Source: Methylophilaceae bacterium (GTDB lineage: Bacteria > Pseudomonadota > Gammaproteobacteria > Burkholderiales > Methylophilaceae). Taken from it: DNA of 64,000 nucleotides. Below are positions 17,608 through 44,166 of the stretch, one piece after another. The stretch spans positions 1-64,000 of the forward strand of contig JACMMS010000117.1 in NCBI GenBank assembly GCA_014378915.1. The letters run 5' to 3'. Every line of letters starts with the position of its first letter. Positions within the stretch are counted from its first letter, which is position 1. Both the position numbers and the translations under genes were made by a program. Below the pieces are notes generated by a model. It made no database searches and was not told where the DNA came from. It saw only the letters and a program-made list of their open reading frames with translations.

Positions 17608-17719
17608 GATGTGTGTATTCTTTGGTAAGGCAATGTTAAGTAAGCAATTTTACCACTTTTAATGAATTAGCTATAGAAAACGCGAGGCGTCAACATTTTA
17701 AAAGGGTAATTACTTACGA

Positions 17720-36401: not shown

Positions 36402-36498
36402 TAATTTAGCACTTAATTCATGCTTAATTGATTAGGCACACTAACTTTTAGCGCGTAAACTATTTAGAATAGGTTTGTTAGTCTCGGATTAAATCACC

Positions 36499-40229: not shown

Positions 40230-41078
40230 ATGAAAACATCATTAAAAATAGTAGCGCTTATTACAGGCATTTATTTAAGCAGCAACCTTGCACTGGCTGG
40301 AGAAATGCAAAAAATTACAGGGTTAAAAACGCCAGAATCGGCTATTCAAGCTAAAGATGGACGTATTTTTGTATCAGAAATTAATGAATTTAGTAAAGAT
40401 GGTGATGGACAAATTAGCGTTATAGATCAACATGGCAACGTATCAGTATTTGCTTCTGGCTTGGATGATCCTAAAGGCTTAGCCATCATTGGTGATAAGC
40501 TTTATGTGGCTGACAAAAATCGTGTATTAGAAGTATTTCCTGATGGGACTTGGGCGGTGTATGGCGCACAAATGGCCTTTCCTAGTACCCCAGTATTTTT
40601 AAATGACTTGGTAGCAGATGGTGCTGGTAATTTATATGTTAGCGATAGTGGTAGCTTAAAAGACGGTGGTCAGATTTTTAAAATCAACCCAAATGGTGAA
40701 GTTAGCTTAGTTGTTGATAGTAAAAATCCAGATATCCTCGCACCCAATGGTTTACTCATGGATGGCAAAAATTTACTCGAAATAGATTTTGCATCGGGTA
40801 TTCTGTATCGCGTAGATTTAAAAACAGGTGCAACTACCAAAGTGGCAGAAGGCTTTGGTGGCGGTGATGGCTTAGTGAGAACCAAAACTGGCAAACTCAT
40901 TATTAGTGATTGGAAAAATGGCAAAATTTACCAAGTAGTCGGTAAAACAGCTAAATTAATCAAAGAAGGTTATAAAGCATCAGCAGACATTGTACTGAGC
41001 AATGACGGTAAAACGTTGATTGTTCCTGATATGAAAGCTGGTGAACTAGACTTTTTACCTATCAGCCTATTTAAATAA
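40230..41078 (+). CDS. secreted SMP-30/gluconolactonase-like beta-propeller
   Basis: A 282-residue protein with a signal peptide (about 1-22, ending LALAG). Propeller blades follow, with repeats such as SVFASGLDDPKGLAIIGDKL, VADGAGNLYVSDSG and VLSNDGKTLIVPDM. These are typical of SMP-30/gluconolactonase or NHL-like folds. I chose the ATG at 40230 because it starts a clean signal peptide; a longer frame from 40140 lies inside the upstream gene. A bidirectional terminator follows. The substrate is unknown. Confidence 0.8.
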   Translation: MKTSLKIVALITGIYLSSNLALAGEMQKITGLKTPESAIQAKDGRIFVSEINEFSKDGDGQISVIDQHGNVSVFASGLDDPKGLAIIGDKLYVADKNRVLEVFPDGTWAVYGAQMAFPSTPVFLNDLVADGAGNLYVSDSGSLKDGGQIFKINPNGEVSLVVDSKNPDILAPNGLLMDGKNLLEIDFASGILYRVDLKTGATTKVAEGFGGGDGLVRTKTGKLIISDWKNGKIYQVVGKTAKLIKEGYKASADIVLSNDGKTLIVPDMKAGELDFLPISLFK

Positions 41079-41157: not shown

Positions 41158-41412
41158 TTACTTAGCTTCTGGAGACGGAGTTGCTGCCTCAGCTGCTTTA
41201 TCAGCAACTGGTTTAGCTGCTTTTTTGTGGTGATGTTTAGCTTTTTTAGCTGGAGCTGCTGTATGTTTTTCCATGTCAGTTGCTGGAGTTGCTGGAGTTG
41301 CTGCTGCTGCTGGTGCTTCAACTTTAGCCGCTGCTGGCGCGACATCTGCTGCAAATGCATTGACTGATACTGCAAAAAAACCAACTAATAATGCTGATAC
41401 GATTTTGTTCAT
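41158..41412 (-). CDS. Asr-like small secreted Ala/Lys/His-rich protein, paralogue 1
   Basis: An 84-residue protein. The signal peptide MNKIVSALLVGFFAVSVNAF ends AA-D, followed by an Ala/Pro/Lys-rich disordered body with KKAKHHHKKAAKPV. The composition resembles the E. coli acid-shock protein Asr, a periplasmic disordered protein; this is resemblance in composition only. The paralogue at 41580-41834 has the same length and a near-identical signal peptide. Three direct-repeat boxes lie upstream at 41442-41571. Confidence 0.75.
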   Translation of the reverse strand: MNKIVSALLVGFFAVSVNAFAADVAPAAAKVEAPAAAATPATPATDMEKHTAAPAKKAKHHHKKAAKPVADKAAEAATPSPEAK

Positions 41413-41441
41413 GGTAGTTTCCTTTAAATTAAATTCAAATG

Positions 41442-41571
41442 TCTTAACGACGCCTTACAATAAAATTGCATAGTTGGTAAATAGCGGCATTACTAAGACT
41501 GGTAATTCTTAATTGCTACTTACGGCCCATGTTGCTTACGTTACACCTTCAATCTTACGCCAGCCTTACAA
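41442..41571 (+). promoter_or_regulatory. three 11-bp-period direct-repeat boxes upstream of the Asr-like gene
   Basis: Three 19-bp sites each hold two CTTA(A/C) half-sites exactly 11 bp apart, all in the same orientation. They are TCTTAACGACGCCTTACAA (41442-41460), TCTTAATTGCTACTTACGG (41507-41525) and TCTTACGCCAGCCTTACAA (41553-41571). Further CTTAC half-sites occur, e.g. at 41535. An 11-bp direct repeat is the typical layout for OmpR/PhoB-family response regulators such as PmrA. The nearby response regulator (41974) is the obvious candidate; binding is an inference. Confidence 0.65.
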
Positions 41572-41579
41572 GCTAACAA

Positions 41580-41834
41580 TTACTTAGTGGTTGATGTTGC
41601 TTCTGTTTTAACTTCTGCTACTTTTAATGCTTTGTCAGCTTTTTTAGATGCAACGTGATTTGCTTTTTTAGCTGGGGCTGTTGCATGTTTTTCAGTTTCC
41701 ACTTTTGCTGCTGGTGTTGCAGCTTCAACTTTTACTGGCTCAACTTTAGCTACTGCTGGAGCTGCATCAGCAGCAAAAGCATTAACTGATACTGTAAAAA
41801 AAACAACTAATAATGCTGAAACGATTTTATTCAT
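41580..41834 (-). CDS. Asr-like small secreted Ala/Lys-rich protein, paralogue 2
   Basis: An 84-residue paralogue of the 41158-41412 product. The signal peptide MNKIVSALLVVFFTVSVNAF is nearly identical, and the body is Ala/Lys/Val/Glu-rich with HATAPAKKANHVASKKADKA. It lacks the triple His of its neighbour. I chose the ATG at 41834, which gives the same start and the same length as paralogue 1; an upstream ATG at 41864 would add ten residues. It is divergent from the response regulator gene, with 139 bp between them. Confidence 0.75.
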   Translation of the reverse strand: MNKIVSALLVVFFTVSVNAFAADAAPAVAKVEPVKVEAATPAAKVETEKHATAPAKKANHVASKKADKALKVAEVKTEATSTTK

Positions 41835-41954
41835 GATCAATTCCTTAAAGTTAAATGACTGCATGGCTTCAATGGTTCGCTTTAGTACTCAATCTTTAAA
41901 CATAGATGTTCTGTTTGCCACTCACCGTCCATGAGTGTCACAATACGCTCTCAC

Positions 41955-41973
41955 TCTTACATGAATCTTACAT
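41955..41973 (+). promoter_or_regulatory. direct-repeat box at the response regulator start
   Basis: TCTTACATGAATCTTACAT contains two TCTTACAT units 11 bp apart, matching the three boxes at 41442-41571. It ends at the base before the response regulator ATG. It may be used in autoregulation or for the divergent small gene. Confidence 0.6.
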
Positions 41974-42663
41974 ATGCGTTTATTAGTAGTTGAAGACGAT
42001 AAAATGTTAGCCGCTGGTTTAATCCAAGCACTCACACAAGCTGGTTATGCGGTAGACCATGCTGAAAACGGTGATGTTGCTAATGCATTATTACAACAAG
42101 CGCCCTATGATTTATTAGTACTCGATTTAGGCCTGCCTAAACTAGATGGCTTTGAAGTATTAAAACGCTTACGTAATCGCGGCGATACTGTTGCAGTGAT
42201 GATTCTCACCGCGCAAGATGCCGTTGAAAGCCGGGTAAAAGGTTTAGATTTAGGTGCAGATGATTATTTAATCAAACCATTCAATTTAACAGAGCTTGAG
42301 GCACGAGTCCGTGCACTTATTCGCCGCGGCAAACTAGGTAGCAACACAGCATTAATATGTGGAGCTCTAACCTTTAACGCGAGTGATAAGAATGCTTTTT
42401 ATAGTGATGCCAATAACAAGCACCAAGTGATTAACTTATCCGCGCGCGAGTTTGCTTTATTAGAAACCTTGATGCACAAACAAAATAAAGTAGTGAGCAA
42501 AGAGCAATTATTAGAATCACTTTGTAATTGGGATAATGAATTGGGTGATAACGCGATTGAAGTATATGTTCATCGCTTACGTAAAAAAATTGCAGTTGCT
42601 AATGTACAAGTCCGAACAATACGTGGCTTGGGGTATTTATTAGAAAACGGTTTAAAAATATAA
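41974..42663 (+). CDS. OmpR-family response regulator
   Basis: A 229-residue two-component regulator. The receiver domain has acidic residues Glu7-Asp8-Asp9, phospho-acceptor Asp51 in LLVLDLGLPKLDG, and a Lys in DYLIKPFN near residue 101. A winged-helix DNA-binding domain follows (SAREFALLETLM to RTIRGLGYLLE). It is closest to the QseB/PmrA/TctD type. The kinase gene starts 3 bp later. A direct-repeat box abuts its start codon and no clear ribosome site is seen. Confidence 0.93.
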   Translation: MRLLVVEDDKMLAAGLIQALTQAGYAVDHAENGDVANALLQQAPYDLLVLDLGLPKLDGFEVLKRLRNRGDTVAVMILTAQDAVESRVKGLDLGADDYLIKPFNLTELEARVRALIRRGKLGSNTALICGALTFNASDKNAFYSDANNKHQVINLSAREFALLETLMHKQNKVVSKEQLLESLCNWDNELGDNAIEVYVHRLRKKIAVANVQVRTIRGLGYLLENGLKI

Positions 42664-42666
42664 TCA

Positions 42667-44166
42667 ATGCAAAATAGCACTTCAAACCAATTATTTGAAA
42701 CCAAAGGGAGTCAGTCCTACTCTTTAAGTGGTCAATTATTGTTGTGGCTCATGCTATGTTTGTTTGTCATATTATCAATTAGTGCAGTTGTTTCTTACTC
42801 GCGCGCCTATCTATTTGCTAACCTAGCTTACGACAGGTCAATTTACCGTGCCGCACTCGCGTTAGCTGATCAAGTGGACGTGGTCAACAACAAGGTAAAG
42901 GTGGATTTGCCACAAATCGCAGAAAATTTGCTTGAGTATGACCAACACGATTATATTAGTTACCGCATTTCTGCCCCTAATGGCAAATTTGTTGCTGGCG
43001 ATGATGAGTTGGATTTACCCACGCAAAAAGTCCCTAGCGGTAAGCATATTTACTACGATGACGTACTTAATGAGGACAAAGTGCGGGTTGTAGCCTACGC
43101 ACTGCCCATTATCAACTCCAAATTAAAAGGTGATTTACTGATACAAGTATCAGAAACACGTGAAAAACGTGAAATCATGGTACGAGAAATTATTGAAGAA
43201 ATGCTGGTTCCGCAAATACTCATTATGTTAATCACCGCCTTAGTGATTTTTTTCAGCGTTAAACATAGCTTAAAGCCGCTTAACCGTTTAAAAAATGCAC
43301 TAGCCTCTAGGTCGCATAGCGACTTCAGTGCTATACAAACGACGAATACGCCATTAGAAATCACTCCTCTACTTGATGAAATGAACGCTTTAATGCGGCG
43401 GGTGGAGGAGAGTGTGATGTTTCAAAAAGCATTTGTTGCAGATGCCTCACATCAACTGCGTACACCATTAGCCATACTACAAAATCAGGCTGAATTAGCA
43501 TTGCGTGAAGATGTTTCTAGCCATACACAACATGCTTTGCAAAACATTGCGACCAGTACCGAACATTTATCACACTTAGTGCATCAGCTTCTGACGCTGG
43601 CGAGAGTGGAGCCTAGCACTAACAGCAACTTCAGCTATACACCGTTCGATTTAAGTAATTTAGCAAAAGAAGTAACAAAAGAGTGGGTACCACGGGCGCT
43701 AGAAAAAGAGATAGATTTAGGTTTTGATATTACAAATATTGATGTTACCACTAGTGATAGTTCTCACATGGTGATGGGTAATGCCTTTATGTTAAAGGAA
43801 ATGCTCAGTAATTTAATTGACAACGCCATCCGCTATACACCTTCACATGGCGAAGTAACGGTATCAGTCAAACAAAATCAGCTTCATGTGCTATTGCAGG
43901 TGAGAGATACCGGTATTGGTATACCACCTGAGCAAAGGCAACAAGTATTTAAGCGTTTTTATCGTATTCAAAACACTGTAGATGGCTGTGGTTTGGGTTT
44001 AGCTATCGTCAAAGAAATTGCAAATAGTCACGACGCTGAAGTGTTTATTACAGGAAATGCAGAAATCAATACCCATGCAAATAACAATCCAATTACTAAC
44101 AAAACGGTTGGCTGTATTTTTAATGTGCAATTTCAATTATTTCCTCATGTAAACTCACATGATTAA
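42667..44166 (+). CDS. sensor histidine kinase (QseC/TctE-like)
   Basis: A 499-residue inner-membrane kinase, partner of the adjacent regulator. Two transmembrane segments (about 23-45 and 181-198) flank a periplasmic 2CSK_N-like domain (about 46-180). A HAMP-like linker, the HisKA domain with phospho-acceptor His262 in DASHQLRTP, and the ATPase domain (LIDNAIRYTP, DTGIGIP, GLGLAIVKEI) follow. The signal is unknown. A long tail after the G boxes includes an Asn-rich stretch. Confidence 0.92.
   Translation: MQNSTSNQLFETKGSQSYSLSGQLLLWLMLCLFVILSISAVVSYSRAYLFANLAYDRSIYRAALALADQVDVVNNKVKVDLPQIAENLLEYDQHDYISYRISAPNGKFVAGDDELDLPTQKVPSGKHIYYDDVLNEDKVRVVAYALPIINSKLKGDLLIQVSETREKREIMVREIIEEMLVPQILIMLITALVIFFSVKHSLKPLNRLKNALASRSHSDFSAIQTTNTPLEITPLLDEMNALMRRVEESVMFQKAFVADASHQLRTPLAILQNQAELALREDVSSHTQHALQNIATSTEHLSHLVHQLLTLARVEPSTNSNFSYTPFDLSNLAKEVTKEWVPRALEKEIDLGFDITNIDVTTSDSSHMVMGNAFMLKEMLSNLIDNAIRYTPSHGEVTVSVKQNQLHVLLQVRDTGIGIPPEQRQQVFKRFYRIQNTVDGCGLGLAIVKEIANSHDAEVFITGNAEINTHANNNPITNKTVGCIFNVQFQLFPHVNSHD

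Follow-up and report, generated by a model that had tools for sequence, protein, structure and literature searches.

What does a direct repeat do that recurs between two genes for small secreted proteins and a divergently transcribed two-component system? The question is raised by positions 41158 to 44166 of the window, the stretch of 64,000 nucleotides of Methylophilaceae DNA that was analyzed here, and the explanation that, taken as a whole, we consider very probable is that a two-component system of the PmrA/QseB/BqsR type acts on the small secreted genes through an operator of direct repeats with an 11-bp period. The phosphorylated regulator would bind head to tail, as a dimer, to a pair of GTAAG half-sites (read as CTTAC from the opposite strand) that are 11 bp, or one helical turn, apart, and the bound dimer, placed 10 nt upstream of the -10 element and overlapping the -35 region, would recruit RNA polymerase (class II activation) and hence activate rather than repress. 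Its direct targets would be the divergent genes for small, secreted, cationic and probably disordered Ala/Lys-rich proteins, together with cphA or the gene of a secreted fasciclin protein in many relatives, and the small proteins themselves would serve as Asr-like polycations of the periplasm, protecting the envelope or its proteins. What the comparison of genomes establishes is the site, its spacing, its place in the promoter, its occurrence together with the regulator and the covariation of operator and recognition helix, the last of these being indirect evidence of direct binding by the phosphorylated regulator. The system adds one more member to a known type; it is the regulon that is unusual and the specificity switch that is clean. 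What emerges is a concrete regulon for one group of methylotrophs, with candidate DNA sites named to the base.

The Regulator and Its Kinase

An OmpR-family regulator and a kinase, divergent from the small genes, were found where the first-pass annotation had placed them, and their domains were matched in Pfam. The regulator (41974-42663, plus strand) is an OmpR/PhoB-type response regulator, PmrA/TctD/QseB-like, in which both the receiver (Response_reg, 103.5 bits) and the winged helix (Trans_reg_C, 77.1 bits) exceed the Pfam gathering scores of 30.2 and 26.2 bits that define the class. Its best NCBIfam models are TctD, PmrA, RppA and QseB, each scoring below its own cut-off (TctD equivalog NF012023, 235.8 bits, cut-off 337; PmrA equivalog NF007928, 231.2 bits, cut-off 330; QseB equivalog NF007663, 191 bits, cut-off 345), and the closest solved structures are those of PmrA/BasR, 4s04 and 8jo2. 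The membrane sensor histidine kinase (42667-44166, plus strand) consists of a periplasmic 2CSK_N domain (PF08521, 123.1 bits with a gathering score of 23.2, which makes it a 2CSK_N sensor kinase), HisKA and HATPase_c; with the QseC model it scores 186 bits, under the cut-off of 475.

Three known systems invite comparison. Enterobacterial PmrA/PmrB (BasRS) is alike in its OmpR/PhoB regulator, in the nearest structures and in head-to-tail half-sites at an 11-bp period, which for PmrA are of the CTTAA type (PMC3973317); it differs in that no lipid A modification gene lies beside the locus here, the kinase here carries 2CSK_N and the targets are other, and the recognition helix reads EVHIHNLR in PmrA/BasR and EVYVHRLR in the present regulator. 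QseBC and TctDE resemble the system in that the kinase scores with the QseC model and has 2CSK_N while the regulator scores with the TctD and QseB models, but every score is under the curated cut-off and no tricarboxylate transport genes were seen beside the locus here. BqsRS/CarRS of Pseudomonas aeruginosa, likened by its published operator and not by regulator sequence, shares operator type and orientation and differs in its targets and in the half-site, which is GTAAG here; BqsR is an activator whose operator, TTAAG-N6-TTAAG, has a pentamer overlapping the -35 element, with extra pentamers acting additively (PMC4682146), and the signal of BqsS is Fe(II) (PMC12666569).

The genome that carries the window also encodes a paralogous regulator, 50% identical and with the same half-site, on a second contig, C95. 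A third related regulator survives there as a remnant, interrupted by a frameshift and by stop codons in frame and trailed by fragments of a kinase gene (G000 C95:912-1549; L033, L060); either a two-component system has decayed here or the assembly is in error.

The Small Secreted Proteins

Small protein 1 (41158-41412, minus strand) is an A/K/H-rich protein recognized by its open reading frame and signal peptide, and matches the family profile at 2.5e-24, a value obtained with its own sequence included in the profile. Small protein 2 (41580-41834, minus strand), an A/K-rich paralogue recognized by reading frame, signal peptide and profile, starts at 41834 and not at 41864, as judged from its alignment with relatives. 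The two reading frames of 84 residues with near-identical signal peptides, both ending ...SVNAFAAD, are thus as first described. By inspection the signal peptides comprise 21 residues, and the mature proteins of 63 residues each are A/K/P/T-rich, especially in Ala and Lys, carry net charges of +3 and +4 for proteins 1 and 2, respectively, and are devoid of Cys and aromatics. No Pfam family matched either protein, and matches to a Shiga-toxin B-subunit HMM were discarded as noise, lying far under the cut-off and mainly at the signal-peptide end. The leader RNAs of both genes fold no better than shuffles, and a search of the intergenic DNA between the small genes for a terminator-like site returned none. 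A gene for a secreted SGL/NHL-type beta-propeller (window 40230-41078) adjoins the small genes and is also present at the locus in L061, L062, L066, L073, L076 and L080.

The proteins had been called Asr-like, a description that stands for resemblance and fails for membership. With the Asr model NF033636 (cut-off 50 bits) small protein 1 scores 16.3 bits and small protein 2 gives no match; the model matches the small proteins of 7 of 13 relatives, with a best score of 26.7 bits where 50 are required, and composition-matched shuffles reach 14.4 bits at most. By sequence comparison, then, the small proteins are Asr-like by resemblance and are not members of the Asr family. In common with Asr of E. 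coli they are predicted to be small, secreted, basic, A/K/H/P-rich proteins under an OmpR-family regulator. The E. coli gene is controlled by RstA and PhoB at operators unlike those here, the RstA box TACATNTNGTTACA having a 10-bp period (PMC4117788) and other half-sites, as compared with the 11-bp period found here by inspection.

The role of these products is the least certain step of our proposal. A protective Asr-like polycation is favored over a kinase ligand of the DbfQ kind, and the chances that the small proteins protect under a stress read by the periplasmic domain of the kinase appear to us to be about even. With the operator working just as proposed, the small proteins might instead be feedback ligands, made on activation, that bind the periplasmic domain and shift the kinase to phosphatase, which we regard as rather unlikely. 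In keeping with such a role the small secreted genes are tightly linked to the kinase in most of the orthologous loci, and the sensor region contains conserved acidic residues (D56, D68, D95, E163, E174) that could meet a cationic ligand. There is, moreover, a precedent in Vibrio cholerae, where DbfQ, a small periplasmic kinase ligand encoded beside its two-component system, acts in this way on DbfS (PMC12714742), the likeness to DbfQRS being one of arrangement, a small periplasmic protein gene beside a two-component system, and not of sequence. However, the small gene occurs in up to five scattered copies in one genome, which looks more like an effector, it has been kept in genomes of 1.3 Mb from which the regulator is absent, and sequences of low complexity that change rapidly fit an effector better than a specific ligand.

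Operator Boxes and Promoter Geometry in the Window

Four CTTA(A/C)-N6-CTTA(A/C) boxes, at 41443, 41508, 41554 and 41956, all in one orientation and with half-sites 11 bp apart, lie in the intergenic DNA as the first-pass annotation had reported; its further statement that they occur only here does not hold, since two more exact copies are found at 17625 and 36412. The 64-kb window thus contains 6 exact sites, compared with 1.03 +/- 0.96 in shuffles (largest value 4), and four of the six are within a single 0.53-kb stretch, 41443-41971. Counts that tolerate one mismatch are at chance level (27 in the window against 22.6), so that only exact or near-exact sites are informative. The site at 36412-36427, CTTAATTCATGCTTAA, sits between the gene of an ankyrin-like secreted protein and a cytochrome/flavoprotein gene pair and is without the conserved -10 spacing.

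The boxes at 41554 and 41956 are perfect copies of CTTAC-N6-CTTAC, each with a TAnnnT that follows at exactly 10 nt on the side of the small gene. The predicted operator-promoters, GTAAGATTCATGTAAG-N10-TATTGT for small protein 2 (41940-41971, minus strand) and GTAAGGCTGGCGTAAG-N10-TAACGT for small protein 1 (41538-41569, minus strand), match the family promoter pattern perfectly. The remaining two boxes, near the start of small protein 1 (41443-41458, minus strand) and between the small genes (41508-41523, minus strand), are CTTAM-N6-CTTAM sequence matches that show no -10 element at the conserved distance; the first of these is not seen in the nearest relative, L061, and both may be candidate extra sites or leftovers. 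A partly conserved TCA(C/T)GG..G is found just downstream of the predicted start of the small-gene transcript (window 41915-41935) and in L061, L063, L069 and L071.

We compared the upstream regions of 30 orthologous loci, our own included, from the 42 of 150 family genomes that carry a regulator orthologue at E <= 1e-70; the comparison set holds no other genome of the window's own genus. Read towards the small gene the arrangement is GTAAG-N6-GTAAG, then exactly 10 nt, then TAnnnT, so that the operator has two direct half-sites of the TTAAG/GTAAG type at the 11-bp period typical of PmrA/QseB/BqsR operators. In 28 of 29 loci the box is exactly 10 nt upstream of the -10 and faces the small gene, not the regulator, with counts of 0-2 at other offsets. 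Such a position relative to the -10 element is that of class II activators in the OmpR family. The caution that the last box abuts the start codon of the regulator is explained by the divergent orientation of the small-gene promoter.

The same abutment is what would be expected if the box were mainly the operator of the regulator gene itself, the small genes being bystanders. Both in the window and in the nearest relative 2 bp separate the end of the box from the regulator ATG, and a weak rightward promoter match, TTGCCA-18-CACAAT (41915-41944), would put the box just past the start point. Nevertheless, the box lies anywhere from 16 to about 100 bp from the regulator but at a fixed 10 nt from the small-gene -10, and its promoter recurs at cphA and at small genes that are unlinked. 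Autocontrol as the main function is therefore very unlikely, although auto-repression may occur as a side effect, and the promoter geometry supports an operator that drives the small genes.

Conservation across Relatives

Lack of conservation in relatives had been named as an outcome that would refute the boxes. The exact CTTAC-N6-CTTAC is found upstream of the regulator in 23 of the 30 orthologous loci, and at least 9 of 10 matches in 28, in a set of relatives that are not independent, many being from genus g19. Shuffles of the same 30 regions lead one to expect 0.34 loci, and the exact box with gaps of 0-5 or 7-15 occurs in none of the 30. Most of these loci have a small secreted basic gene divergent from the regulator; the one clear exception, L070, is missing both small gene and box. 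In g19 genomes another, shorter basic secreted protein (TNPSPHDQ...) is encoded beside the regulator.

The promoter also accompanies the regulator genome by genome. The complete pattern occurs at 76 sites in the 42 regulator-positive genomes, 37 of which have at least one (reversed control, 3), and at 16 sites in the 108 regulator-negative genomes (reversed control, 11), the positive genomes being larger than many of the negatives. Eight of these 16 belong to genus g20, where the three inspected precede a HAD-type gene whose neighbor in other genomes is the paralogous regulator. Unlinked small genes in regulator-positive genomes mostly have the promoter, often with 2-4 half-sites at the 11-bp period and with the 10-nt spacing kept, and some are without a box. 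In the 1.3-Mb genomes of g13 and g20 that lack a regulator orthologue the small genes have no such promoter, except in G133, which has a GTCAG-type site. A scan of named genomes gave only distant paralogues (40-50%), for none of which the filters applied returned a small gene or an upstream CTTAC-N6-CTTAC box, and outside the family only two genomes, of the same order, pass 1e-66, both with the regulator beside recA and without a small gene. The proposal of an 11-bp direct-repeat operator in the layout of OmpR-type regulators, with the small genes as targets, is thus supported by spacing that is conserved and by boxes that follow the regulator across genomes.

Remote small genes of G005, G025 and G038 (L210, L211, L214, L215) have four half-sites at a strict 11-bp period, with room for two regulator dimers. 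In g19 genomes (for example L250, L251, L255, L260 and L262) a secreted fasciclin-domain protein is found under a promoter of the small-gene type.

A Specificity Switch and Cyanophycin Synthetase

The recognition helix reads EVY[IVL]H in genomes with GTAAG operators and EV[IN]VS in four genomes of the g7 Methylotenera group (G026, G089, G095, G145), a switch that may be one event. In these four the operators at the small gene and at cphA are CTGAC-N6-CTGAC, with unchanged geometry. In an alignment with Klebsiella PmrA the two switched helix positions fall on His193 and His195, residues named as DNA-contacting (PMC3973317). In G095 the paralogous regulator (helix EVYIF) keeps a GTAAG site before the HAD-type gene, and the four switched genomes amount to a natural experiment on the insulation of paralogous regulators.

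Cyanophycin synthetase (cphA, PF18921) is the best conserved distant target. A box precedes all 12 of the genes found and matches the helix in each case, GTAAG accompanying EVY.H, and GTCAG the altered helix of the four switched genomes, and in 7 of the 12 promoters the -10 element is at exactly 10 nt. Within genus g7, cphA is present in all five genomes with the regulator and absent from the five tested without it. Small cationic periplasmic proteins would in this manner be linked to cyanophycin storage via one regulator. This link argues that the system may respond to a metabolic or general stimulus, and not purely to envelope stress, and the original envelope-stress reading may be too narrow.

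A limited literature search gave no account of a PmrA or acid-shock system in Methylophilaceae or Methylotenera, nor of two-component control of cyanophycin synthetase. We consider fairly likely a regulon not described before: a single two-component system would control Asr-like cationic proteins of the periplasm jointly with cyanophycin synthetase, and its DNA specificity would have switched naturally, two helix residues having changed in step with every checked operator (GTAAG to GTCAG) and the old site having been kept by a paralogue of the same genome. That the repeats are a chance or compositional artifact of AT-rich intergenic DNA, as the chance level of the one-mismatch motif and the two window boxes (of four) without conserved geometry might suggest, is contradicted by conservation, fixed spacing, co-occurrence and covariation and is extremely improbable.

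Further Sites in the Same Genome

The genome-wide motif scan that had been recommended as a check returned 49 exact sites, compared with 12 for the reversed control. Among the 100 CTTAC-Nx-CTTAC pairs listed for spacings of 0-25, spacing 6 accounts for 14 and the other spacings for about 3.4 each. Full promoters precede the HAD-type gene (C95:6917), the gene of an outer-membrane efflux protein (C95:36650), cphA (C137:8366) and, by inspection, a secA-looking gene (C30:2900). Between the paralogous regulator and a fatty-acid desaturase (C95:5985-6024, L090) two overlapping, opposed boxes form a nearly symmetric divergent promoter with N10-TACATT each way. A divergent pair of boxes also separates glycosyltransferase family 9 and DUF535 genes (G000 C89:3679-3786, L091), the -10 being one mismatch off on each side. 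The boxes on C95 and C89, and some others in this genome, may belong to the C95 paralogue rather than to the regulator of the window. Lastly, a box at G000 C14:11869-11900 (L093, L278) precedes the reading frame of a secreted helix-hairpin-helix (ComEA-like) protein whose tail is A/K/P-rich; the frame appears to be interrupted by frameshifts and is a possible target.
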